Assembly (NCBI GenBank): GCA_947628065.1
Contig: CANQYK010000005.1
Location: forward strand, 1 to 40,866
From: an uncultured Bacilli bacterium
GTDB lineage: Bacteria; Bacillota_I; Bacilli_A; RF39; UBA660
Reading direction: 5' to 3'
DNA: 40,866 nucleotides
Position 1 is the stretch's first letter; every line of letters begins with the position of its first letter. Of the stretch, positions 1-30,126 are shown piece after piece. The notes beneath the pieces were generated by a model. It was not told the origin of the DNA, did no database searches, and worked only from the letters and a program-made list of their open reading frames with translations. A program made the translations under genes and the position numbers.

Positions 1-688
1 TTTAGTCTTTTCTACATCCTTTTTCTTATCTTTTTTATCGTTCTTCTATGCTCAGATTATTTCCCGGGAAATAATTTTAATCTTTTCTACACCTTTTTTT
101 TATCTTTCTTATTGTTCTTCTATGCACCAATTATTTCCCGGGAAATAATTTTTAGTCTTTTCCACACTCCTTTTCTTATCTTTCTTATCGATCTTCTATC
201 TTCTATGCTTCGATTATTTCCCGGGAAATAATTTTAGTCTTTTCTACACCCTTTTTTTATCTTTCTTATTGTTCTTCTATGCACCAATTATTTCCCGGGA
301 AATAATTTTTAGTCTTTTCCACACTCCTTTTCTTATCTTTCTTATCGATCTTCTATCTTCTATGCTTCGATTATTTCCCGGGAAATAATTTTAGTCTTTT
401 CTACACCCTTTTTTTATCTTTCTTATTGTTCTTCTATGCACCAATTATTTCCCGGGAAATAATTTTTAGTCTTTTCCACACTTTTTTTCTTTTCTTTATT
501 ACTGTTCTTCCATGCCTCAATTATTTCCCGGGAAATAATTTTAGTCTTTTCTACACCTTTTTCTTATCTTTTTTATTGGTCTTTTATTCCTCAATTATTT
601 CCCGGGAAATAATTTTAGTCTTTTCTACACCCTTTTTTTTATCTTTATTACTATTCTTCTATGCTCAGATTATTTCCCGGGAAATAAT
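1..688. repeat. Array of nine perfect palindromic Noc-binding-site repeats
   Basis: Nine identical copies of the perfect palindrome ATTATTTCCCGGGAAATAAT start at 56, 130, 213, 287, 370, 444, 520, 594 and 669. Start-to-start distances are 74, 83, 74, 83, 74, 76, 74 and 75 bp. The spacers are related to each other, almost purely pyrimidine on the + strand, and carry recurring words such as TAGTCTTTTC and GTTCTTCTATGC. The core ATTTCCCGGGAAAT is the Noc-binding site described in Bacillus subtilis, and a Noc-type protein is encoded at 18,146-19,648. Bases 1-55 are a complete spacer, so at least one more copy should lie just left of the window. The block follows the gyrA terminator and has no credible coding content. 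That the sites are Noc sites rests on the consensus match; the role of the cluster is inference. Confidence 0.9.
130..443. repeat. Perfect 157-bp tandem duplication inside the array
   Basis: Positions 130-286 and 287-443 read identically by eye. Each unit holds two palindromes, one followed by a 63-bp spacer and one by a 54-bp spacer. The longer spacer differs by a short internal duplication of TCTTCTAT. Complete identity in non-coding DNA suggests recent unequal exchange or slippage, so copy number may vary between strains. Confidence 0.85.
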
Positions 689-706: not shown

Positions 707-734
707 AAAAGAGGAAAATTAACTTTCCTCTTTT
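707..734 (-). terminator. Rho-independent terminator of the recF-gyrB-gyrA operon
   Basis: An 11-bp stem (AAAAGAGGAAA with TTTCCTCTTTT) surrounds a 6-nt loop. Read on the minus strand it ends in a T run. The gyrA stop codon lies in the loop region, so the hairpin begins before translation ends. It separates the gyrase operon from the palindrome array. Confidence 0.8.
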
Positions 735-3187
735 ACTTCTGATTCCATTACAGATTCTTCTTCTGTTTCTTCTTTTTCTACTATCGCTACTGTCGCAACT
801 TTTTGCTCTTCTTTTAAATTAATTAATCTTGTTCCTTGTGTTGCTCTTTTTAAAGTAGATATCTGTGATAAAGGCATCCTCATTATAATACCACTATCTG
901 TAATAATCATAAGATCTAATTTTTCCACAAATTCTGGTTTAACATATTTTAAAGCTACCATATTTCCATTTTTCTCTGTTATATTTAATGCTTTTACGCC
1001 TTTACTTCCACGATGTGTTAAGCGATATTCATCAATTATTGTTTTTTTACCATATCCTTTTTCTGTAACAATTAAAATTTCTTCACCAGAATTAATTACT
1101 TCTGCACCAATAACCTTACTATCGCCTAAGTCAATTCCTTTCACTCCAGAAGTACCACGCCCCATAGAACGAATTTCTGTTTCTTGGAATCTTACCATAC
1201 GACCATTGCTTGCTCCGATTACGATTTCATCATTTCCTACTGTTTTACGAACGGCAATTAATTCATCATTTTCTTTTAATATAATTGCTATTTTTCCAGA
1301 TTTTCTAATATTTTCAAATTCTTCTATTGCTGTACGTTTTACTAATCCATTTCTTGTCGCAAACAATAAGAATTTACTTGGTTCATCTTCTGCATTTAGC
1401 TCTATCATCGAACTAATGTTTTCATCTTTTTCTAACGATAATAAATTAACAATTGGTAATCCTTTGGATTGTCTTCCAAATTCTGGTATTTCATATCCCT
1501 TTAAGCGATATACTTTACCTTTGTTCGAGAAGAATAGAATATAATCATGTGTTTTCATTGGTATTATGTGTTCTACAAAATCTTCTTCATTGGTTGCCAT
1601 TCCTTTGATACCAACACCACCACGATTTTGTGCACGATAGGTATCTGATTTTACACGTTTTATATATCCCTTATTTGTTAAGGTTATAATAATATCTTCT
1701 ACTGGAATTAGGGATTCATCTTCAATATACTCAATTGCTGTCATATCAATATTGGTACGACGTTCATCTGCATATTTTGCTTTAATCTCTAATAATTCCT
1801 TTTTGATGACTGCCAAAATATTTTCATCACTACTTAAAATTTCTTTTAATTCTTCTATTGTTTTTAATAAATCTTGTAACTCGTTTTCTATTTTTTCTCT
1901 TTCTAATCCAGTCAAACGACGTAATTTCATTTCCAAAATAGAATTAGCTTGAATCTCACTTAATCCGAATTGATTCATCAAACCATTTCTTGCTTCTTCA
2001 TCAGATTGACTACCACGAATTAACTTAATAACAGCATCAATATGATCAAGTGCTATCTTTAGCCCTTCTAAAATATGTACTCTTTTCTCTGCTACATCTA
2101 AATCATATTGTGTTCTTCTTATAATAACTTCTCTTTGATAATCAATGTATTTGGCAATGATATCTTTTAATCCCAGTGTTTTTGGAACACCTTGATCCAA
2201 CATTAAGAAGATAATTCCATAAGATGTTTGAAATGCTGTATGTTTGTATAACTTATTTAAAACAACTTGGGCATTCGCATCTTTTTTTAACGTAATCGTT
2301 ATTTTTATACCATCTTTCAAGTCCGTATGATAATCCGCAATTCCTTCGATTGTTTTATTATGAACAAGTTCTGCTACCTTATTTTTTAAATCTAATGTAT
2401 TAATACCATATGGTACTTCATCTACAATAATATATTGTCTTCCATTCTTTTCTTCAATGGTAGCTTTACTTCGAATGGTAATACTTCCTCTACCTGTTTC
2501 ATAAGCTTTTCTAATACCACTATTTCCTAAGATGTTCGCACCCGTTGGAAAATCAGGTCCTTTGATATATTTCATTAATTCATCTAATTCAATGTCGTGA
2601 TTATCAATGTACGCTACACAACCATCAATTACTTCCCCTAAATTATGTGGTGGAATATTGGTTGCCATACCAACGGCTATTCCTGTCGTACCATTTACTA
2701 AAATATTTGGAAAACGAGATGGTAAAATTTCTGGTTCTTTTGTTGTTTCATCAAAGTTTGGAATAAAGTTTACGGTATTTTTATTAATATTTCTTAATAA
2801 TTCTAAGGATATCTTTGATAATCTTGATTCTGTATAACGCATTGCTGCCGCACCATAACCTTCAATATTACCAAAATTTCCATGTCCATCAATTAACATA
2901 TAACGATAAGAAAAATCTTGTGCCATACGTACCATTGCTTCATAAATACTAGAATCTCCATGAGGATGGTAATTACCCATAACCTCTCCAACTGTTTTGG
3001 CACTTTTCTTATGTGGTTTATCTGGTGTATAACCAGACTCATACATGGAATATAAAATTCTTCTATGAACTGGTTTTAATCCATCTCGTAAATCAGGAAG
3101 TGCACGTGCCACGATAACACTCATTGAATATTCTAAGAAAGAATCTTGTACTTCTTTTACAATATTATTTTTTTCTAAGCGATCCAT
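719..3187 (-). CDS. gyrA: DNA gyrase subunit A
   Basis: This is the 822-residue breakage-reunion subunit of gyrase (A2B2), which introduces negative supercoils. The catalytic tyrosine is Y118 in AAAMRYTES. The quinolone-determining region reads [12 protein letters not shown], with S79 and E83 at the Escherichia coli 83 and 87 positions. The GyrA-box region is [10 protein letters not shown], with V where K or R is usual. The C-terminal beta-pinwheel is complete and ends in an acidic tail rich in E, typical of GyrA rather than ParC. The start is supported by an AGGAGGT ribosome site at 3194-3200 overlapping the gyrB stop. It is the last gene of recF-gyrB-gyrA. Length is normal for Firmicutes. 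Confidence 0.97.
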
Positions 3188-8266: not shown

Positions 8267-9628
8267 TTATTTTATGTCATTTTTTAGCTTTTCAATGATG
8301 TTTGCTAAGTCCTTATTATTCTTTCTTTCATTTTCAATTTTTTCCACAGAATACATAATGGTGGTATGGTCTTTTCCTCCAAATTCCGTTCCTATTTTCG
8401 GAAAAGATTCACTGGTTAGTTTCCTACAAAGATAAATCGCAATTTGTCTTGGGAAAGCAATGTTACTGCTTCGTTTCTTTGATTTTAAATCTTCCACAGA
8501 GATCTGGAAAAATTCGGATACAATCTTTTGAATTCGAGCAATATCATTTTTTTCACTCATTCCTGTATTAATGAAATCAGTTAAGCATTCAACGGCTAGA
8601 TTTAGACTAATATTCACCCCCCCCATCATCGTAGAATAAGCAATTAGTCTTGTAATACAACCTTCAAGACTTCTTACATCACTTCCCATATTAGAAGCAA
8701 TGTATTCAATAACATCTTCTGGAATATCCGTTTCAAAGTTACCAGCAATAATCTTTTTTCTTAATATTTCTTTTCTTAGTTCAAAGTCTGGTGGATGAAT
8801 ATTAACCGTTAAGCCCCAACAAAACCTTGTTTTAAGACGTTCTTCTAAGAGTTTTAAATCATTTGGGGATCGATCCGATGAAATGATAATTTGTTTGCTA
8901 TCATTATATAAGTTTGTAAAGGTGTGGAAAAACTCTTGTTGGGTTTGGGTCGCGCCTCCTAAAAACTGGATATCATCAATGATTAAAACATCAATATTAC
9001 GATATTTATTTTTAAAGAAATCCACAGAATTAAAGTTGGTACCATTCTCATCCTTTCGGTTAATACTAACAAAATCATCCCGAAATTGATCACTGGTAAC
9101 ATAAAGAACCCTTCGATTGGAATTTTCCACAATATAATTACCAATCGCGTGCATTAAGTGGGTCTTCCCTAGCCCACTATTTCCATAAAGGAATAAGGGA
9201 TTATACATTTTACCAGGGTTTTCTGCAACAGAAAGTGCTGCTGCTTGGGCAAATTTGTTACTATTACCGACGACAAAGTTTGAAAAATTATAGTTTGGAT
9301 TAAGATTTGATTTTTGTTTAAAGTTTTGACTTTCCTCTTCTACTTTTCCCTCTTTTGGTTTAACATCTTCCTCTTCTTCTAATTCTTCTTTTAATAGAAA
9401 TTTTAATTCAAAGTTCGTTCCTGTTACTTTATTAAGGGATGTTTGAATTAAGTCGGTATAATTATCCGATAAATGTTTTTTATGAATGGACATTGGAACT
9501 AAAAAGATCGCTACCCCATCCTTTAGACTATGTAAGGTAATATCTTGAAACCAAGTAGAAAAGGCAAGGGAAGATAGTTCGTCTTTTATTTCATTTCGTG
9601 CATTGGTCCATAAAATATCGACATTCAT
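8267..9628 (-). CDS. dnaA: Chromosomal replication initiator DnaA
   Basis: This 453-residue initiator binds DnaA boxes and melts oriC. Domain I (residues 1-75) is followed by an acidic linker, then the AAA+ domain with Walker A GNSGLGKTH at 149-157 and Walker B VLIIDDIQF. The C-terminal DNA-binding signature is GGKDHTTIMYSVEKI. The ATG at 9626-9628 is preferred: it gives the usual N-terminus (MNVDILWTNA) and has GGGGAG eight nt upstream. The longer frame to 9667 would run through the promoter. It is divergent from the sigma-like gene across oriC. Confidence 0.97.
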   Translation of the reverse strand: MNVDILWTNARNEIKDELSSLAFSTWFQDITLHSLKDGVAIFLVPMSIHKKHLSDNYTDLIQTSLNKVTGTNFELKFLLKEELEEEEDVKPKEGKVEEESQNFKQKSNLNPNYNFSNFVVGNSNKFAQAAALSVAENPGKMYNPLFLYGNSGLGKTHLMHAIGNYIVENSNRRVLYVTSDQFRDDFVSINRKDENGTNFNSVDFFKNKYRNIDVLIIDDIQFLGGATQTQQEFFHTFTNLYNDSKQIIISSDRSPNDLKLLEERLKTRFCWGLTVNIHPPDFELRKEILRKKIIAGNFETDIPEDVIEYIASNMGSDVRSLEGCITRLIAYSTMMGGVNISLNLAVECLTDFINTGMSEKNDIARIQKIVSEFFQISVEDLKSKKRSSNIAFPRQIAIYLCRKLTSESFPKIGTEFGGKDHTTIMYSVEKIENERKNNKDLANIIEKLKNDIK

Positions 9629-9667
9629 CTTACCATCTCCCCACTTCAATTGAATTAACATTATCAT

Positions 9668-9860
9668 ACTCTAAAAAGTGGAAAAAGAAAATAGAAAAAA
9701 AGAAAAAAATTTTCTCCACAATTTTTCGACAAATTTCTCCACAAGAAAAATGTCGAAATTTCAAAGAATATTTAAGTTTTCCACATTTTCCACAGATTTT
9801 AAATTAACAAGGGAAAAAATCCTTTCCACAGTAGTGTGGATTTTGTTGAAAAAACTTGCC
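9668..9860. other. oriC: Chromosomal replication origin (oriC)
   Basis: This AT-rich gap lies between dnaA and the divergent sigma-like gene. One-mismatch DnaA boxes are at 9712-9720 and 9735-9743 (TTCTCCACA) and at 9777-9785 and 9786-9794 (TTTTCCACA). Weaker matches are at 9822-9830 and, inverted, at 9835-9843. Purine-rich and AT-only stretches (9678-9711, 9795-9820) could be the unwinding element. An inverted TTTCGACA pair is at 9724-9731 and 9751-9758. Genes run away from this point on both sides, as expected of an origin. Confidence 0.85.
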
Positions 9861-9884
9861 TTTGGTAGTATCTTTTGATATAAT
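9856..9884 (+). promoter_or_regulatory. Promoter of the oriC-adjacent sigma-like gene
   Basis: TTGCCT (9856-9861), a 17-nt spacer and TATAAT (9879-9884) with TGA extending the -10 make a strong consensus promoter pointing right, out of oriC. Confidence 0.8.
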
Positions 9885-9912
9885 AGGAAACGTTTTTAAA
9901 GGGGGGACTCGT

Positions 9913-10710
9913 ATGTTAAAGAATATTGGTACCAAAGAAGAGGTAATTATAAAGAATATGGATTTGGTAAAAAATATTGCTAAGAGATATCATGAGATAA
10001 CAGGAGTAGAAGAGGAAGACTTAATTTCTTGTGGTTATGAAGCATTGGTAAGAGCCGTAAACAACAGAGAAAATGATTCTATAACTGTTTCAATTAGTAA
10101 ATATATTAATGGCTATATTCATTGTTATATTAGATATTTTATTGAAAGGGAATGTGATATTAAAAAAGGGACGTTGTATCAATCTTTTATGACGGAAAAG
10201 AAGATGGTAGAAGAAATTTATGGTTGTCAACTAGAAGAAAATTTCAATATGATTGATGATATTGTTTCTTTATTAGTAGAAGAAGGAAAAATAAAAAAAG
10301 AAGATGCAAATAGAGTAGGAGAAAAGATAAGAAAGCAATATGGAGAAAAATTAATTTCACTGGATCAAATAGTAGAGGAAGAAGAAGAGAGTACTTTTGG
10401 ATTAATAGACGATCATTTCCTTCCTTATCAAATTGCTTTCCTACTTACAAAAAATCTATTAGAACAAAAACTAGAATTATTTACAGAGAAACAAAAAGAT
10501 ATTCTTTTCTCTTATTATGGAGTAGATTGTGATCGTCCTTTTTCTTTACTAGAATTAAGTGAAAAATATCAATGTAGTGGTGAAAACATAAGACACATAA
10601 GAAATACGGTTCAACAAAAATTAAAAGGAAAGGCTTTAGAGGAATCCTTTGAAGCGTTAGAAGAATATTGTTATAAGGATGTTCCAATGAAGAAAGTCAA
10701 AAAACTTTAA
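9913..10710 (+). CDS. Sigma-70-family RNA polymerase sigma factor
   Basis: This 265-residue protein has a region-2-like N-terminal half: [28 protein letters not shown], then [17 protein letters not shown] in the -10 recognition position. Its C-terminal region 4 reads [20 protein letters not shown], then [20 protein letters not shown], like a primary-sigma -35-binding helix-turn-helix. The middle (residues 85-165) is acidic and does not resemble a standard region 3. The start is the ATG at 9913 after GGGGGGACTCGT. It lies between dnaA and rpmH, which are normally adjacent in Firmicutes. Target promoters are unknown; it could be an alternative sigma factor of the SigH/ComX kind, but nothing in the sequence proves that. 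Confidence 0.8.
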
Positions 10711-18145: not shown

Positions 18146-19648
18146 ATGCAAAATGAGAATGAAGTTGTATATTTATATTTGGATGATATTATTCCAAATC
18201 GTTTCCAACCAAGACAAGTGTTTGATGAAAGAGCTTTAAAAGAACTTGCTGTATCTATCAAAGAGCATGGAGTAATACAACCAATTATTGTAAGAAACAT
18301 TGGAAATAAATATGAGATTATAGCAGGTGAGAGACGTTATAAAGCGAGTGCATTAGCAGGTCTTACAAAGATACCTGCTATTGTTCGTGATTTGGATGAT
18401 AAAGAAAGTAGTAAAGTTGCCCTCTTAGAAAACTTACAAAGAAAAAACCTTAACCCAATGGAAGAAGCAAGAACCTATCAAAAAATACTAGAACTTGACC
18501 AAATGACCCAAGAAGAACTTGCTAAAACGATGGGAAAAAGTCAAAGTGCAATTGCGAATAAATTAAGATTGTTATCCTTAACGGATGAAGTACAAGATGC
18601 TTTGTTAAAAGAACAAATATCAGAACGTCATGCAAGAAGTTTACTTGCACTTGAAACACCAGAAGAACAAACAGAAATGTTAAAAAAAGTAATTAGTAAT
18701 AAAATGACCGTAAGAGAACTGGAAGAGACCATTAATCCAAAGAAAGAAGCAACCGTAGGTGAACTTGATGATTTATTAAAAAGTAATCCTGTTCCAATAG
18801 AAGAAAAAGAAGTAGCAGAGATGAATCCAAGCAATAATGTTAATAGTGAATTTAATCAAAGTGTTGGAATTGATTATAGTAGTCCACCAAAATTTATTGA
18901 TTATGGAACGGATGATAAAACTCCAAGTGTGGTTGATTCTAGTTTAGAAAGTACAGCTTCTAATCCAATCAATTTAGATGAATTAAGAGCAAATGCATCG
19001 GATATTAATTTGGATACTTCAAAGAATAGTTTTGATTTAAATAATATGTTGAAAACAGATAACAATAGTGATAATGAAGGAGATAATAATCATGATTCTA
19101 ATGCTGGAACAAGTGGTGGGATGTTCAAATTTTTTGAACCAGCAAAAGAGGAATCACAAGAAGATGTAGAAGTAAAACAGGATAACAAGATGGAATTACC
19201 ATCAACTTCTTCTTTTGATCTTCCTAATGTTATCAAAACAGAAGATAATACACCAAAACAAGAAGAACCATCTGCTTTTGATGCGTTACTTGCAACCAGT
19301 GATAAACAGGAAGATAGTAGTCTTGATAGTTTGTTACAGACAAATAATGAAGGACAAGAAGAAAAAAATGAGAACGAAACAAATAATATTCCTTATCTTG
19401 ATACTTATAACAATCCATTTGCTCGCAATCCAATTTTCCAAGACGATGTAGAAAAAATTGTTGGAAAAGGTCAAGCAGATGGAACTGTAAAGCCAACTTA
19501 TAACTTTAATGAATGTCTGGAACTTGTTCGAAATGCAGTTAAGGATATTGAAAGTTCTGGCTTTAAAGTAGATAGTGAAGAGATGAATTTTGAAAAGAAT
19601 TATCAAATTGTAATCAAAATAGAAAAGAAAGAGGAAGAAGGGAAGTAG
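18146..19648 (+). CDS. noc: Noc-type nucleoid occlusion protein with a long acidic linker
   Basis: This 500-residue ParB/Noc protein is far longer than B. subtilis Noc (about 283). The CTP-binding ParB fold occupies residues 10-105 (GERR at 61-64, ENLQRK at 95-100). The helix-turn-helix occupies 115-195. Specificity positions corresponding to Caulobacter ParB 173, 179, 184 and 201 are Q133, K139, S144 and R161; Q, K and R are Noc-type. Residues ~197-450 form an acidic, Asn/Ser-rich linker with repeated (F/L)D-x-L motifs. Residues 453-500 resemble the Noc dimerisation domain. The N-terminal amphipathic helix that binds the membrane in B. subtilis is missing. GTGAGGG precedes the ATG. Noc loads at ATTTCCCGGGAAAT and blocks division over the nucleoid; such sites are arrayed at 1-688. 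Confidence 0.9.
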   Translation: MQNENEVVYLYLDDIIPNRFQPRQVFDERALKELAVSIKEHGVIQPIIVRNIGNKYEIIAGERRYKASALAGLTKIPAIVRDLDDKESSKVALLENLQRKNLNPMEEARTYQKILELDQMTQEELAKTMGKSQSAIANKLRLLSLTDEVQDALLKEQISERHARSLLALETPEEQTEMLKKVISNKMTVRELEETINPKKEATVGELDDLLKSNPVPIEEKEVAEMNPSNNVNSEFNQSVGIDYSSPPKFIDYGTDDKTPSVVDSSLESTASNPINLDELRANASDINLDTSKNSFDLNNMLKTDNNSDNEGDNNHDSNAGTSGGMFKFFEPAKEESQEDVEVKQDNKMELPSTSSFDLPNVIKTEDNTPKQEEPSAFDALLATSDKQEDSSLDSLLQTNNEGQEEKNENETNNIPYLDTYNNPFARNPIFQDDVEKIVGKGQADGTVKPTYNFNECLELVRNAVKDIESSGFKVDSEEMNFEKNYQIVIKIEKKEEEGK

Positions 19649-19705: not shown

Positions 19706-19738
19706 AAGATGTGAATTATGAAAAGAAGTGGTGATAAT

Positions 19739-20524
19739 ATGGGAAAAGTAATTGCACTCGTTAATCAAAAAGGTGGAGTAGGAAAGACAACAACGTCAAT
19801 TAATCTATCAGCCTCTTTAGCATACCTTGGAAAAAGAGTTTTATTAATTGATTTGGATCCGCAAGGAAATACAACAACGGGTGTTGGAATTAACAAAGGT
19901 GATATTGAGAAAAGTGTTTATGATGTATTAACAGGTAAAGCACCTATTATTGATACGATGATTAAAACAAAATACAAACAGTTATATGTATTACCTGCAA
20001 CCATTAATTTAGCAGGACTTGATATTGAATTGTTAGAAAAAAGTCAAACCGAGCCAGGTTTTGCCAAGGGTGCACAATTAAAACAACATTTAACCGATAT
20101 CAAGGATAGTTTTGATTTTATTATTATTGATTGTCCCCCTTCTTTAGGTCTTATTACGACCAATGCTTTAACGGCAAGTGATTCTGTTATTATTCCTGTT
20201 CAATGTGAGTTTTTTGCATTAGAAGGAATTATGCAGTTATTAAATACTATAAGACTTGCCCAAAAACAATTAAATCCAACCCTTGATATTGAAGGAGTCT
20301 TACTTACTATGTTAGATTCTAGAACCAATTTAGGGTTTGAAGTAGTAGAAGATATTAGAAAATTCTTTAAAGAAAAAGTATACAATACCATTATTCCAAG
20401 ATTAATAAGATTAACAGAAGCTCCAAGTCATGGAGAACCAATAATAGTGTATGATCCAAAAAGTAAAGGATCCGAAGCTTATTTAAATTTAGCAAAGGAA
20501 GTGATTGATCAAAATGGAAAATAA
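19739..20524 (+). CDS. parA: Chromosome partitioning ATPase ParA/Soj
   Basis: This 261-residue ParA/MinD ATPase has the deviant Walker A KGGVGKTT at residues 11-18, DLDPQGN in the A' motif and IIDCPPSLG in Walker B. ParA/Soj acts with ParB in origin segregation and modulates DnaA in Bacillus. The ATG at 19739 (MGKVIALVNQKGG) is preferred over the in-frame ATG at 19718, which encodes a non-conserved extension. Its end overlaps parB by 11 nt. Confidence 0.95.
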   Translation: MGKVIALVNQKGGVGKTTTSINLSASLAYLGKRVLLIDLDPQGNTTTGVGINKGDIEKSVYDVLTGKAPIIDTMIKTKYKQLYVLPATINLAGLDIELLEKSQTEPGFAKGAQLKQHLTDIKDSFDFIIIDCPPSLGLITTNALTASDSVIIPVQCEFFALEGIMQLLNTIRLAQKQLNPTLDIEGVLLTMLDSRTNLGFEVVEDIRKFFKEKVYNTIIPRLIRLTEAPSHGEPIIVYDPKSKGSEAYLNLAKEVIDQNGK

Positions 20525-21395
20525 AAGAAGAGCCTTAGGAAAAGGGTTAGAAGAACTTTTTAATAGTGAACAGTTAGATATTTCAAAAGTAGAAGAAAAA
20601 ATATTAGAAGCAACCCCAAAGAATGAAATTGTAGAATTAAATTTAGATGAGTTAAGAAGCAATCCCTATCAACCAAGAAAGAATTTTGATGAAGATTCTC
20701 TACAAGAACTTGCCAATTCTATTAAGGAACATGGTGTATTACAACCAATTATTGCTAAAAAAAGTATTAAAGGGTATGAGATCGTAGCAGGAGAACGTCG
20801 TGTAAAAGCAAGTCGCTTAGCAGGACTTACAACGATTCCTGCAATTGTAAAAGATTTTTCCGATGAAGCAATGATGGAAATTGCTCTTCTTGAAAATTTA
20901 CAAAGAGAAGATTTAAATGCAATTGAAGAAGCAATGGCCTATCAAAAATTACAACAAACACTTAATTTAACCCAAGAAGAACTAGCAAAAAAAGTAGGGA
21001 AAAGTAGAAGTCATATTACCAATATGTTAGGGCTTTTGAATCTTCCAGAGCATACAAAAGATGATATTGTAATTGGAAATATCAGTATGGGACATGCTAG
21101 AGTTTTAAGTAAGCTACAAGATAAAGAGCAAATAGAATCATTAACAGAGAGAGTAAAAGAAGAAAACTTAAGCGTTCGCGCTTTGGAAGAGTTAACATCA
21201 TCAAATAAAGAATTTGCGCGCAAAAAAGAAATTAAACGGAAAGAAAAGCCAGTAAGTGAATATAATTATGTAGAAGAAAATTTATGTGAAAAACTTGGAA
21301 CTAAGGTTAGAATCAAAAATAAAAAAATTGAAATACGTTTTGAAAATGCTGCAGATTTAACAAGAATACTAGAGATTATGCATTTAGAAAAATAA
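20514..21395 (+). CDS. parB: Chromosome partitioning protein ParB/Spo0J
   Basis: This 293-residue CTP-dependent DNA clamp loads at parS and recruits SMC. It starts MENKRRALGKGLEELF, a typical ParB N-terminus. GERR is at 93-96 and ENLQRE at 127-132. At the four specificity positions it has R165, M171, N176 and G193; R and G are ParB-type, unlike the noc product. I saw no full parS (TGTTTCACGTGAAACA) in this gene or elsewhere in the window. The start is the ATG at 20514 inside the end of parA. Confidence 0.95.
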   Translation: MENKRRALGKGLEELFNSEQLDISKVEEKILEATPKNEIVELNLDELRSNPYQPRKNFDEDSLQELANSIKEHGVLQPIIAKKSIKGYEIVAGERRVKASRLAGLTTIPAIVKDFSDEAMMEIALLENLQREDLNAIEEAMAYQKLQQTLNLTQEELAKKVGKSRSHITNMLGLLNLPEHTKDDIVIGNISMGHARVLSKLQDKEQIESLTERVKEENLSVRALEELTSSNKEFARKKEIKRKEKPVSEYNYVEENLCEKLGTKVRIKNKKIEIRFENAADLTRILEIMHLEK

Positions 21396-24094: not shown

Positions 24095-27000
24095 ATGCGG
24101 AAACGGGTATTATTTAAAGTAGGTATTTTATTTATTGTTGTTGCTTTATCTTTGGGACTATATCAATTTTTTAAGGAATATCAAGCAGTTAATGAAGAAG
24201 TAAGATTAAGAACTGCTTATTATGTAAAGACAGGTCAAGTGTTAAATGTAGTTCAGAAAGATTTTTTAGAGGGTAGTACCGTTGAAAGTAGTGATACCAA
24301 TGTTGCAGAAATTACGAATGATGGAGGAATTGAAGCAAAGAATCCCGGTGTTGCAACGGTTACAGTAACAAAACCTCTTGAAGAGATGCAATCTACACTT
24401 CCCCAAATTGATCCTAATACATTACCACCGGAAGAAAGAGAAGAGTATGAAGAAAGAGCAGAAGAGGAAACCATTCCTCAAGAAGAATATGAAGTAAGTT
24501 ATAATTTTGATGTTGTTGTAAAACAACCAGTAACAGGAGTAAAATTAAATGTTGAAATTGCTCATTTGGAAGAAGGAAAAACATTACAATTAGAACCACT
24601 TTTTATACCAGATAATGCTTATAATAAAACAGTGTCTTATCAATCTTTTAATAATGATGTTGCGACAGTATCAGAAACAGGTTTGGTAACAGCGAAAAAA
24701 AGTGGAGAAACAACAGTTGAAATTGTAACACAAGATGGTGGTTTTAGAAGTACTTGTACGATAATGGTATATTCAAAGAAAGAGGATAATAAACTTTATG
24801 TAAAAGAAGAATCTTTCTCATTATTTACGGATGAAAAAGTTCAAATAAATGCAAGTGTAACACCAAATTCTGATGAAAACAAAAAAATTAAATATCAAAG
24901 TAGTGATACTAATATATTTACGGTAGATGAAAATGGAGTAATAACTGGTAAAGTTCATGGACAAGCAGAAGTAATTGTAACGTATGAAAATATGGAAAAA
25001 AGAATACCAGTTACAGTAAATGAAGTAGTAGCAACCAAACTACAAGTAAGTCCAAAAACAGTTCATTTAAAAGAAGGAGAAACTCAAAAAATTGAGGTTA
25101 TTGTAGAACCAGAAAATGCCTTAGATAAAAATGTTAATTATAGTAGTAGTAATTCTTCTGTGGCAGAAGTCCAAAATGATACAATTGTAGCGAAACAAGC
25201 AGGTACTGCAACGATAAGAGTTAGAACTAACAATGGATTAGAAGATACAATAGAAGTACAAGTAGAAGCCAAAGAAGCTCCGAAAAAGAAAGAAGTAGAA
25301 AGTATTAAATTAAATGAAAGTACACATTCTATGTATGTAGGAGAAACTTATCAAATAGGATATACCTTCTCACCAATGGATGCAGAGGTAACACCCCCTA
25401 CTTTTACCTCTTCTCGTAGTAGTGTAGCAGTTGTTGATCAAGCAGGTACAGTAACAGCAATGGGACCTGGAACAACGCAAATTACAGTTACAATGGGAAA
25501 AGCATCTGCAACGATGACTATGACGGTAAAACAAGTAACAATTCCAGCAACGAGTTTAACGGTATCTCCAACATCTATTTATGGAAAAGTAGGAGATGTA
25601 ATTCCTTTAGAAGTCTATATTACTCCAGAAAATGCAACAGAAAGAAATATTATATTTGGAACAAGTGATAACTCTGTCGCATCTGTTTCTGCATCAGGAG
25701 TTGTAACTTTAAGAAAAGAAGGAACTGCAGTTATATCTGCTCATATAAATTATGGACCTAATGTTAATATTAATGTTGTAGTAGAAGCACAACCTACCAT
25801 TACACTGAATAAACAAGCAATCAATTTGGTTCAAGATGCAACGGAAAAAATAACAGCAACGGTAAAAAATAGTAATGATAAAGAAATTGTTTGGTCTAGT
25901 GAAAATTCAAATATTGCAACTGTAGATAATAATGGAAATATAAGAGCAGTTGCGGATTCTGGAAGTACTACGATTGTTGCGTCTTTAAAAAGTAATCCTG
26001 CAATAAGAGCAACAGTAGTGGTTAATATAACTGCTAAGAAAATAGCAGCTACTGGTATTACGGTAACCAATCAAAATACAGGTGTTAATTTAATAAATCA
26101 TTTATTTTTAACAGTAAATACAACAACAAATTTGCAAATACAAGTAACTCCCGCTAATACTAGTGATAAACCAGTTGTTAGTTTTGTAAGTGGACAATCA
26201 ACATCGCTAGTTAATATGAGTCAAAATGGAAATACGGTTAGTCTTCAATCTTCTTCTAAAACGGGTACAACAAAAATTCAAATACAAGCAGGAAATGTTG
26301 TAAAAACGATTATTGTACAAGTTGAGGGTACCGGAGATAAAATGTACTTTCTGTGTAAAAATACATATACTCCCGGAGATACTGATACTTGGGTAACAGG
26401 AGATGCTATTATTGTTCGAAGTGATAATGAATTTGGAATGGTAGATACTGGACGAGTTAGTACGAATAAAGAGCCAAATGCAACCGAGGATGTTTTTTCG
26501 ATATTAAATGGTTTAGGAATAAAAACATTAGATTTTATTATTATTTCTCATTGGGATAGTGATCATTATGGTAATCTTTTACCAATTTTAAAAGAATATA
26601 ATGTTAAAAAAGTATATGCTAAAACATATTCTCATAATGGAACTCCTGTTTATACCTATGAATTTTCAAAGAGTAATAAATTATCAAAAGTAAAAGAAAT
26701 GGTAGAAGTAATTACTGGAAAACAGGTTTTAGAAGGTGCGAAGAACAGAATTGGAAATATTTTAAAAACACCATCTAATTTTACTTTTCATAATATGCAA
26801 TTTGAAGTATATAATAAAGATGATATTTATAAGTCATATTATGATAAATGTCATAAGAGTGGTATAACATGTGATGAAAATCCTCAAAGTTTAATTTATC
26901 TAGTTAAAGTAAATGGAAAGAAAATTCTTTTGGCAGGGGATAGTATAAATTTAAAGAAAACAATTACAAAAAATGGAAAAAAAGAAATTGTTATGCAAAG

Positions 27001-27313
27001 TAATGTTCAAACTAACACATATAAAAAAATTGGTAAAGTAGATGTATTTAAAGTCGCACATCATGGCTTTTCAAGTAATAATCCTAAAGCTTCTATTGAT
27101 TTAATTAAACCAAAATATGCAGTGTTTACAAATAAAGAATCTAGGTTTGGAAGTTGGAGTACTAATAGTTCATTAGGACATATTAATAATGCAGGATATA
27201 CAAATATTAAGACATATACAGGAAGTAATAATTATTTCACTTATGGAAAAGTAATTATATCAAGGTTTGCTCCTAGTAAGATTTATTTTGCAGAAGCACC
27301 TGCAACGTTATAG
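24095..27313 (+). CDS. Surface-anchored Ig-like (Big_2) repeat protein with a ComEC-like metallo-beta-lactamase domain
   Basis: This 1072-residue protein has an N-terminal membrane helix (residues 6-26) without a clear cleavage site. About eight tandem Ig-like Big_2 domains follow (residues ~35-745), with typical motifs such as SSDTNVAEI and GVVTLRKEGTAVISA. A C-terminal metallo-beta-lactamase fold (about 747-1072) carries HWDSDH at 819-824, AGD at 947-949 and VAHHGFSSN with HH at 989-990. These motifs match the hydrolase domain of ComEC/Rec2, which has HxDxDH rather than HxHxDH. The predicted arrangement is an extracellular enzyme on a stalk. The first Ig domain holds an acidic, proline-rich insert. 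The ATG at 24095 has AGGAGAGGTG upstream. Substrate is unknown; a nuclease or phosphodiesterase activity is inferred. Confidence 0.85.
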   Translation: MRKRVLFKVGILFIVVALSLGLYQFFKEYQAVNEEVRLRTAYYVKTGQVLNVVQKDFLEGSTVESSDTNVAEITNDGGIEAKNPGVATVTVTKPLEEMQSTLPQIDPNTLPPEEREEYEERAEEETIPQEEYEVSYNFDVVVKQPVTGVKLNVEIAHLEEGKTLQLEPLFIPDNAYNKTVSYQSFNNDVATVSETGLVTAKKSGETTVEIVTQDGGFRSTCTIMVYSKKEDNKLYVKEESFSLFTDEKVQINASVTPNSDENKKIKYQSSDTNIFTVDENGVITGKVHGQAEVIVTYENMEKRIPVTVNEVVATKLQVSPKTVHLKEGETQKIEVIVEPENALDKNVNYSSSNSSVAEVQNDTIVAKQAGTATIRVRTNNGLEDTIEVQVEAKEAPKKKEVESIKLNESTHSMYVGETYQIGYTFSPMDAEVTPPTFTSSRSSVAVVDQAGTVTAMGPGTTQITVTMGKASATMTMTVKQVTIPATSLTVSPTSIYGKVGDVIPLEVYITPENATERNIIFGTSDNSVASVSASGVVTLRKEGTAVISAHINYGPNVNINVVVEAQPTITLNKQAINLVQDATEKITATVKNSNDKEIVWSSENSNIATVDNNGNIRAVADSGSTTIVASLKSNPAIRATVVVNITAKKIAATGITVTNQNTGVNLINHLFLTVNTTTNLQIQVTPANTSDKPVVSFVSGQSTSLVNMSQNGNTVSLQSSSKTGTTKIQIQAGNVVKTIIVQVEGTGDKMYFLCKNTYTPGDTDTWVTGDAIIVRSDNEFGMVDTGRVSTNKEPNATEDVFSILNGLGIKTLDFIIISHWDSDHYGNLLPILKEYNVKKVYAKTYSHNGTPVYTYEFSKSNKLSKVKEMVEVITGKQVLEGAKNRIGNILKTPSNFTFHNMQFEVYNKDDIYKSYYDKCHKSGITCDENPQSLIYLVKVNGKKILLAGDSINLKKTITKNGKKEIVMQSNVQTNTYKKIGKVDVFKVAHHGFSSNNPKASIDLIKPKYAVFTNKESRFGSWSTNSSLGHINNAGYTNIKTYTGSNNYFTYGKVIISRFAPSKIYFAEAPATL

Positions 27314-28511: not shown

Positions 28512-28940
28512 ATGAAGGTTAACAAATTAGCAATTTATCTAACAGCACTTACTATCGGTACTACAACACTTTCCGGTTGTGGAAAAGAATTTGAGTATGA
28601 AGTAACAAAAGATGGAGAAATAAAAGCGACCAATACAATTTCTTACAGTAATTTATCAGATGATGTCTTTTTAACATTAGAATACGATGATGATACTACG
28701 GTTACATACATTACAAATAAATGGTATACAAGTCGTTCTACTGATTCTACTGATTATTATGAATATGATGATGAAATGAGTGGAAAAGGAATCTTTTCTT
28801 TGGGATATGATAAAGATCATGAAGAATATAAAATTGCTGATCCTAGTATTGCGTCTTTTAATGAGAGTATGGTAGATTATTTTTTAACCAAATATGGTTA
28901 TAGGGAATTTCCAAAAAAAAATTTACCACTTATGGAGTAA
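28512..28940 (+). pseudogene. Lipoprotein gene, 5' part, interrupted by an insertion sequence
   Basis: The standing frame gives 142 residues with a lipoprotein signal ending LSGC (Cys23), then a Tyr/Asp-rich domain. The insertion sequence begins at 28,903, so the last 12 residues (after TKYGY) are encoded by the element. Joining 28,512-28,902 to 30,223-30,326, which removes the element and one copy of a TA target duplication, restores a single frame of 164 residues ending KLEKVKE. The family is not recognised. The truncated product may still be made and anchored. A GGGGG-type ribosome site precedes the ATG. Confidence 0.85.
28903..28928. repeat. Left terminal inverted repeat of the insertion sequence
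   Basis: It begins GGGAATTTCC and ends ATTTACCA, and is the reverse complement of 30,195-30,220 with one A/T difference in the central A run. Confidence 0.88.
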
Positions 28941-30126
28941 TAAGAACACTCCATTTTTTAATATGATCTTGTCTTGTAATATATTGATTTTCTAATTGTT
29001 TCATTTCTTTTTTATCAACTGTCATACCTTTTTCATATTTAACATCTTTTAATTTCGTTACCGATTTCTTTTCCTTCCATGTTAAATTTTTCATAAAATT
29101 CATACAAATATCAACACTTTCTAAAAGATACCCATTCCATATATTTTCAAGTCTTGCCCATAATCTTTCTACTGGATTATATTTACTATGATATGGTGGA
29201 TAATAAATTAATTCTATTGTAATGTTATATTTTTTTGCTACTTCTATTAACCCTTTTAAAAAAGCTGTTCTAACTCCACTATTATCAGGCCCATTATCTA
29301 AAAGTATAGAAAGTTTATTATATTTACTGTTTTCGTATTGTTCTTTCCAAAATTCTTCAATACAGTCTACTATATCCATTGATGTTGGCTTAGATGTAAA
29401 ATTATAAAAGTGTGGTATATTAGTTTTTATATCTAGTATTCCCAAAGGTATTAAGCAATTATTTGTTAATTCATGATCAACTGCCTTTACTTGTATTCTA
29501 TTTTTGCCTTCCCTTGAATAAGGACCAATCAATACTTTATCTTTTGTATCAATTGAAATAAGAACGGTTTTATCTTCTTTTATTGCTTCTTCTTTTTTTT
29601 CATGAACATTCGCAAATATATCATCTGTTTCTTTTATTTTTTTTAATGGCTTTGTTTTTTGGACTTTTTTTAAATTATAACCCATTTTATTTACTAAATT
29701 ATTTAAACTACTATCACTGAAACTATCCTCCTCATATTTACCATTTTTAATTAATTGTTTTTTTATTTCTTTAATACTCAGTCTCACATATTGTGTTTCA
29801 CTTTTAAAGTGTGGATCTACAGAGGAATTGTTTTCTATTATTTTTTTGATATCTTCTTGTAATTCAGGATACTTTGTAGTTAAACTTTTTCTTCCTCGTG
29901 TTTCAACTTTAGGTTTATAAGTTATTGTGCCTTTGAATATTTCTATTGCTTTTCTAATTGTAAACCGTGATAAATCAAATATTTTAGAAAGTGCAGAAAT
30001 ACAACGATTCCCTATATCTAGCGCTAATGACCCAATCATTTTCATTTTTTGTTCTTTGTTTGATATATTTTTTATCGTTTTTATTAAATTTTTATAACAT
30101 TTTTCTATTTTTTGTAGTATACTCAT
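28930..30126 (-). CDS. DDE transposase (ISAzo13-like)
   Basis: This 398-residue transposase has an N-terminal helix-turn-helix (ISALSKIFDLSRFTIRKAI) and a DDE core. The core includes LISIDTKDKVLIGPYSREGK, LLDNGPDNSGVRTAF and YPPYHSKYNPVERLWARLEN; candidate catalytic residues are the D of SIDTK, the D of LLDN and the E of PVERLW. These blocks resemble the ISAzo13 group (Rhodopirellula-type DDE transposases). The ATG at 30,126 has AAGGAAG upstream and a strong promoter in the right end. The stop is next to the left inverted repeat, and no internal frameshift is evident. Confidence 0.85.
   Translation of the reverse strand: MSILQKIEKCYKNLIKTIKNISNKEQKMKMIGSLALDIGNRCISALSKIFDLSRFTIRKAIEIFKGTITYKPKVETRGRKSLTTKYPELQEDIKKIIENNSSVDPHFKSETQYVRLSIKEIKKQLIKNGKYEEDSFSDSSLNNLVNKMGYNLKKVQKTKPLKKIKETDDIFANVHEKKEEAIKEDKTVLISIDTKDKVLIGPYSREGKNRIQVKAVDHELTNNCLIPLGILDIKTNIPHFYNFTSKPTSMDIVDCIEEFWKEQYENSKYNKLSILLDNGPDNSGVRTAFLKGLIEVAKKYNITIELIYYPPYHSKYNPVERLWARLENIWNGYLLESVDICMNFMKNLTWKEKKSVTKLKDVKYEKGMTVDKKEMKQLENQYITRQDHIKKWSVLITP

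Follow-up and report, generated by a model that had tools for sequence, protein, structure and literature searches.

A window of 40,866 nucleotides, the whole stretch of DNA that was analysed, begins with a tandem array of nine Noc-binding sites (NBS), and this array is probably the Noc-loading half of a composite parS/NBS centromere beside oriC. The map of the sites is itself strong. The initial annotation had described a free-standing Noc array; the array and Noc were recovered, but parS had been missed and the array is probably only half of a composite ParB/Noc locus. Its suggestion of a centromere-like role fits the data best, with parS immediately beside the array and alternating with NBS in relatives. 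The parts of this arrangement are known already. The composite parS/NBS arrangement with a Noc lacking its membrane helix was not found in the literature searched, mostly outside subscription journals, and no paper there described naturally occurring NBS arrays or parS interleaved with NBS.

ParB and Noc are textbook paralogues held to have diverged in both site and function, ParB serving origin segregation and Noc serving division control over most of the chromosome. If our reading is true, this division of labour is not universal, the exception being a large family of uncultured gut bacteria, and the role of Noc after its split from ParB becomes directly testable. A further question is how a single stretch of DNA can accommodate two sliding clamps, and natural interleaved parS/NBS units could be used for labelling and single-molecule work.

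The NBS array and the origin region

The array (1-690) lies in a non-coding block 3' of the end of gyrA (719-3187, minus strand). All nine exact NBS cores between 56 and 688 are embedded in ATTATTTCCCGGGAAATAAT, a perfect 20-bp palindrome, so that the identical copies first reported were confirmed. The palindromes, for which no strand was assigned, occupy 56-75, 130-149, 213-232, 287-306, 370-389, 444-463, 520-539, 594-613 and 669-688, with the core ATTTCCCGGGAAAT starting at 59, 133, 216, 290, 373, 447, 523, 597 and 672, respectively, and core-to-core distances of 74, 83, 74, 83, 74, 76, 74 and 75 bp. This core is identical to the known NBS of B. subtilis, as had been claimed. Allowing up to two mismatches, 0.29 copies of the 14-bp core were expected by chance per window, and none of 100 shuffled windows reached nine NBS.

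The array units could be aligned over their entire length, with variation mostly in the spacers: among ten aligned units, two of 22 columns were variable in the 22-bp palindrome versus 29 of 61 in the spacers (Fisher p=0.0016). A 157-bp super-unit (units 2-3 and units 4-5) is repeated at 97%, which explains the alternating 74/83-bp spacing and indicates array growth by tandem duplication, with the NBS remaining unchanged. The DnaA-box-like sequence TTTTCCACA was noted in alternate array units (158, 315 and 472, and 10571 and 10648 on a second contig, C45); it is carried by five of the ten aligned units and could reflect DnaA binding or an eroded parS. The spacer sequence TTTTCCACAC sits 25 bp from the NBS start, compared with 26 bp for parS in the 76-bp units of one relative (L017), and from this matching offset it was considered a candidate eroded parS.

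The source assembly is a 1.55-Mb MAG of 135 contigs (92.9% complete, 6.7% contamination). The window is all of contig C5, and position 1 of the array is the end of that contig, past which the array continues. It resumes on C45, where NBS were found at 10546 and 10623, with the contig ending at 10695; the array therefore has at least 11 units in all, nine on C5 and at least two on C45. The gene order on C45, with names assigned by eye and by synteny, is pth, rsmI, trmN, yaaT, holB, recR, ybaB, dnaX, tadA, followed by the array to the contig end. Since the array spacers of C45 are homologous to those of C5, and the gene orders of both are found on a single contig in relatives, the two contigs are neighbours, the assembly having broken in the repeat.

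A total of 13 exact NBS cores were found in the assembly, nine on C5 and four on C45, and none on the other contigs. All 13 thus lie on origin contigs, in agreement with the proposed proximity to the origin, and no comparable NBS density exists elsewhere in the genome. The two isolated NBS of C45 lie within dnaX (8654) and between rsmI and pth. Adjoining the array on C45 are the parS-like sequences TGTTTCACGTGAAACT at 10408 and TGTTCCACGTGGAACA at 10450, about 95-140 bp from the first array NBS; they are the sole parS-like sequences of the genome at up to two mismatches. As parS stands next to the array on C45, the parS pair and the Noc array of this chromosome form a single locus that lies some 9 kb away from the putative oriC. 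The combination of parS-like sites near oriC with parA and parB at 19718-21395 is that of a ParABS system, and the NBS, all on two origin contigs, do not follow the dispersed, terminus-depleted pattern of Noc systems.

The putative oriC is a cluster of the DnaA-box-like sequences TTTTCCACA and TTCTCCACA at 9668-9870 (no strand assigned), upstream of dnaA (8267-9667, minus strand), with TTTTCCACA at 9777 and 9786. A sigma-factor-like protein, judged by eye from its translation, is encoded beside it at 9856-10710, between dnaA and rpmH/rnpA.

Noc, ParA and ParB of the window

The gene order rsmG-noc-parA-parB was found in the window, with noc at 18146-19648, a soj-like ATPase gene parA at 19718-20524 and a spo0J-like parB at 20505-21395, all on the plus strand. 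The noc product contains ParB_N and HTH_ParB domains; its best NCBIfam match is nucleoid_noc TIGR04285 (292.8 bits against a cut-off of 315, residues 6-200) and its closest PDB matches are Noc structures. In a tree of N-terminal and HTH domains it grouped with Geobacillus/Bacillus-type Noc, apart from ParB (support 96/90), and judged from its sequence it is a true Noc-clade protein.

Its specificity residues are Q, K, S and R (GKSQS..NKLRLLS..SERHAR), versus R, M, N and G in the ParB of the window, which is of the R173/G201 type and carries the ParA-binding motif LGKGL. Q173 and R201 plus a single lysine, at either 179 or 184, are enough for a protein to prefer NBS in vitro (PMC7383237), and the window Noc is of the Q173/K179/R201 type. 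The earlier assignment of a Noc-type protein accordingly held for clade and for these three positions, but position 184 is serine, not lysine. The motifs GERR and ENLQR were recognized by eye, and CTP clamp activity is putative.

The window Noc starts 17 residues ahead of NRFQPR, and its start codon is preceded by an in-frame stop at a distance of three codons; for this reason an N-terminal amphipathic membrane helix is absent. No such helix was found in nearly all of about 34 Noc orthologues of the family that were inspected; in a few, the reading frame stays open further upstream and offers alternative starts. Adams et al. predicted an amphipathic helix in all Noc homologues that they examined, and in B. 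subtilis both occlusion and membrane attachment depend on the helix (PMC4331003). Noc proteins of the family also have a long acidic low-complexity linker, short conserved DLDSLLN-like stretches and a conserved C-terminal domain; a Pfam search of linker and C-terminus gave no significant match.

An SMC gene is present. No MinC was detected among 13 genomes from the window's genus, in a search that did match the B. subtilis control, and division-site selection must therefore differ from that of Bacillus. Elsewhere in the window, 24095-27313 encodes a protein of 1072 aa that by eye has Ig-like repeats followed by a metallo-beta-lactamase/ComEC-like hydrolase domain, and a DDE transposase (PF07592, ISAZ013-type) at 28930-30126 marks an insertion in the origin region.

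NBS and parS in related genomes

The family was surveyed for NBS, and at least one exact site was found in 118 of 145 genomes. Among 30 unselected genomes taken in listed order, 73 of 75 NBS fell in the pth-gyrA-dnaA-noc block (binomial p ~1e-89 under uniform placement), and NBS occurred in the gap between gyrA and tadA-dnaX in 18 of the 30. The array itself is therefore no requirement of the family, as many members contain just one to four NBS and in some of them the gap holds none. Single NBS recur inside dnaX, in or after rsmI, at mnmE/mnmG and in rsmG, and isolated NBS share the extended consensus AAAWT-ATTTCCCGGGAAAT-AWTTT. The site within the dnaX coding sequence was seen in 24 of 69 mapped genomes, the extended palindrome being kept within the gene. 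Some rsmI NBS overlap an apparently conserved RE motif of the RsmI protein, and their conservation may come partly from coding constraint. In a class-level sample the exact core was found in 35 of 38 family genomes versus 10 of 258 others. A small number of NBS surround the same genes of the origin region in two related families (f17 and f19), and the arrangement may thus extend beyond one family.

NBS were found in 114 of 135 Noc-encoding family genomes and in four of ten Noc-lacking ones (p=0.003, genomes counted as independent; Noc-class and ParB-class matches separated by E-value). The ten family genomes without a Noc-class match contained 0-2 NBS each, four of them keeping one or two, and none had an NBS array, whereas arrays do occur in Noc-encoding relatives; both observations agree with what the initial annotation would lead one to expect. 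Exact NBS were absent from 21 Noc-encoding family genomes, a count that may be affected by the ease with which array contigs are lost during assembly. At least one of these (G008) has a variant array, in which four copies of the one-base variant ATTTCCCAGGAAAT alternate with parS (L134, 9183-9509); this suggests that site and protein have coevolved.

When 84,980 species genomes were scanned for triplets of NBS with gaps of 45-75 bp, 16 contigs were returned, all from MAGs whose titles read Bacilli, Bacillales, Erysipelotrichaceae or plain bacterium, and on all 16 the array adjoins gyrA, dnaX or tadA. The array is next to gyrA and/or tadA-dnaX, and on most of these contigs its NBS alternate with parS. 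The composite parS/NBS cluster of relatives occupies the gap between gyrA and tadA-dnaX. The interleaved units are 75 bp long in L014 (nine parS and nine NBS, one-base variants included), 76 bp in L017, about 79 bp in L026 (about 12 parS and about 12 NBS) and 62 bp in L020. Segregated arrangements, as in the window's genome, were also found, with four NBS followed by thirteen parS in L011 and an NBS array followed by three parS in L018 and L019. Composite unit lengths range from 62 to 127 bp across relatives, and other relatives are irregularly spaced.

Within the genus of the window, 28 of 31 genomes contain NBS, and the congener arrays that were fetched are mostly composite, often with units of about 127 bp and with at least 14 units in G604. 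Most congeners examined thus combine both sites in units, whereas the array of the window's genome consists of NBS only, with two parS at its edge. Over 69 mapped genomes, some of them picked for high NBS counts, the median distance from a gap NBS to the nearest parS was 57 bp, and 133 of 159 gap NBS lay within 100 bp of one.

Proposed role of the array and competing explanations

In the reading that we favour, two paralogous CTP-dependent clamps would load side by side at a single locus in the gyrA/tadA-dnaX gap, with parS serving ParB and NBS serving Noc. In vitro, NBS act as nucleation sites for B. subtilis Noc, which then closes with CTP and slides (PMC8429893); by analogy, Noc of this organism would bind its NBS, shut with CTP and slide off, and tandem NBS would give a dense local Noc domain sharing DNA with the ParB/SMC partition complex. 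The helix-less Noc would then probably mark, organise or license the segregating origin through its linker and C-terminal domain. Because the N-terminal membrane helix is absent, the role of Noc here is probably not nucleoid-to-membrane tethering, and the membrane anchoring of the origin that had been proposed finds no support; the likeliest role is as part of the partition complex or in a control function linked to the origin. In a bolder form, which we hold tentatively as possible rather than probable, Noc, freed of its membrane role, would be an integral second centromere protein acting with ParB/SMC at interleaved NBS-parS units, and such a two-clamp centromere may preserve or re-create a stage of Noc's origin from ParB.

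Clustered clamp-loading sites near oriC are familiar from ParABS systems. Myxococcus xanthus has 22 parS, and Caulobacter also has an origin-proximal parS cluster. The present locus resembles these in having parA and parB close by, and differs in its additional site type for a second paralogous clamp. With the Noc/NBS systems of B. subtilis and S. aureus it shares the core site, an orthologous protein, the rsmG-noc-parA-parB neighbourhood and an origin bias. Those species have about 70 or 41 dispersed NBS (PMC5540599, PMC4331003), whereas here 13 surround one locus, mostly in tandem beside parS; the contrast with dispersed sites is taken from these papers, since the genomes sampled across the phylum all belonged to a single class and included no Bacillus. 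B. subtilis Noc moreover has the membrane helix, while here the helix is absent and MinC was not found. Several NBS were also brought together on an 8xNBS laboratory plasmid (PMC4331003), whereas the present array is natural and chromosomal.

It is fairly unlikely that the length of the array arose as a neutral side effect, through satellite-like tandem duplication of one or a few functional NBS. The repeated super-unit and the highly variable copy number within the genus are consistent with such growth, one or two NBS are enough in many relatives, and array length could drift by unequal recombination. However, the NBS are much better conserved than the spacers, and the arrays of other lineages differ in unit, length and spacer sequence, with those of G014, G609 and G110 being irregular, as if arrays had been built up independently more than once at this locus.

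Control of replication initiation by Noc at the array, by analogy with S. aureus, whose Noc acts on DnaA and limits initiation (PMC5540599), is unlikely. The distance of about 9 kb to oriC and the presence of the oriC form of the DnaA box, TTTTCCACA, in half of the aligned units would suit it, but DnaA-box-like motifs are no feature of the relatives' arrays inspected.

Classical nucleoid occlusion, with Noc tethering the NBS-rich origin to the membrane and blocking FtsZ there, is distinctly unlikely: the helix is absent from this Noc and from nearly all of the family orthologues inspected, and 13 NBS in one region would not cover the nucleoid, even though NBS are origin-biased in B. subtilis and S. 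aureus (PMC5540599, PMC4331003) and an extra division-site regulator would be useful where MinC was not found.

Finally, the perfect palindromes, one of them inside dnaX, might be mobile repeats or structural elements (cruciform, terminators) unrelated to Noc, a reading that is extremely improbable and was rejected, given that no exact copies lie off the origin contigs, the core is that of the known NBS, the sites are commoner in Noc-encoding genomes and the same loci are occupied across many genera.
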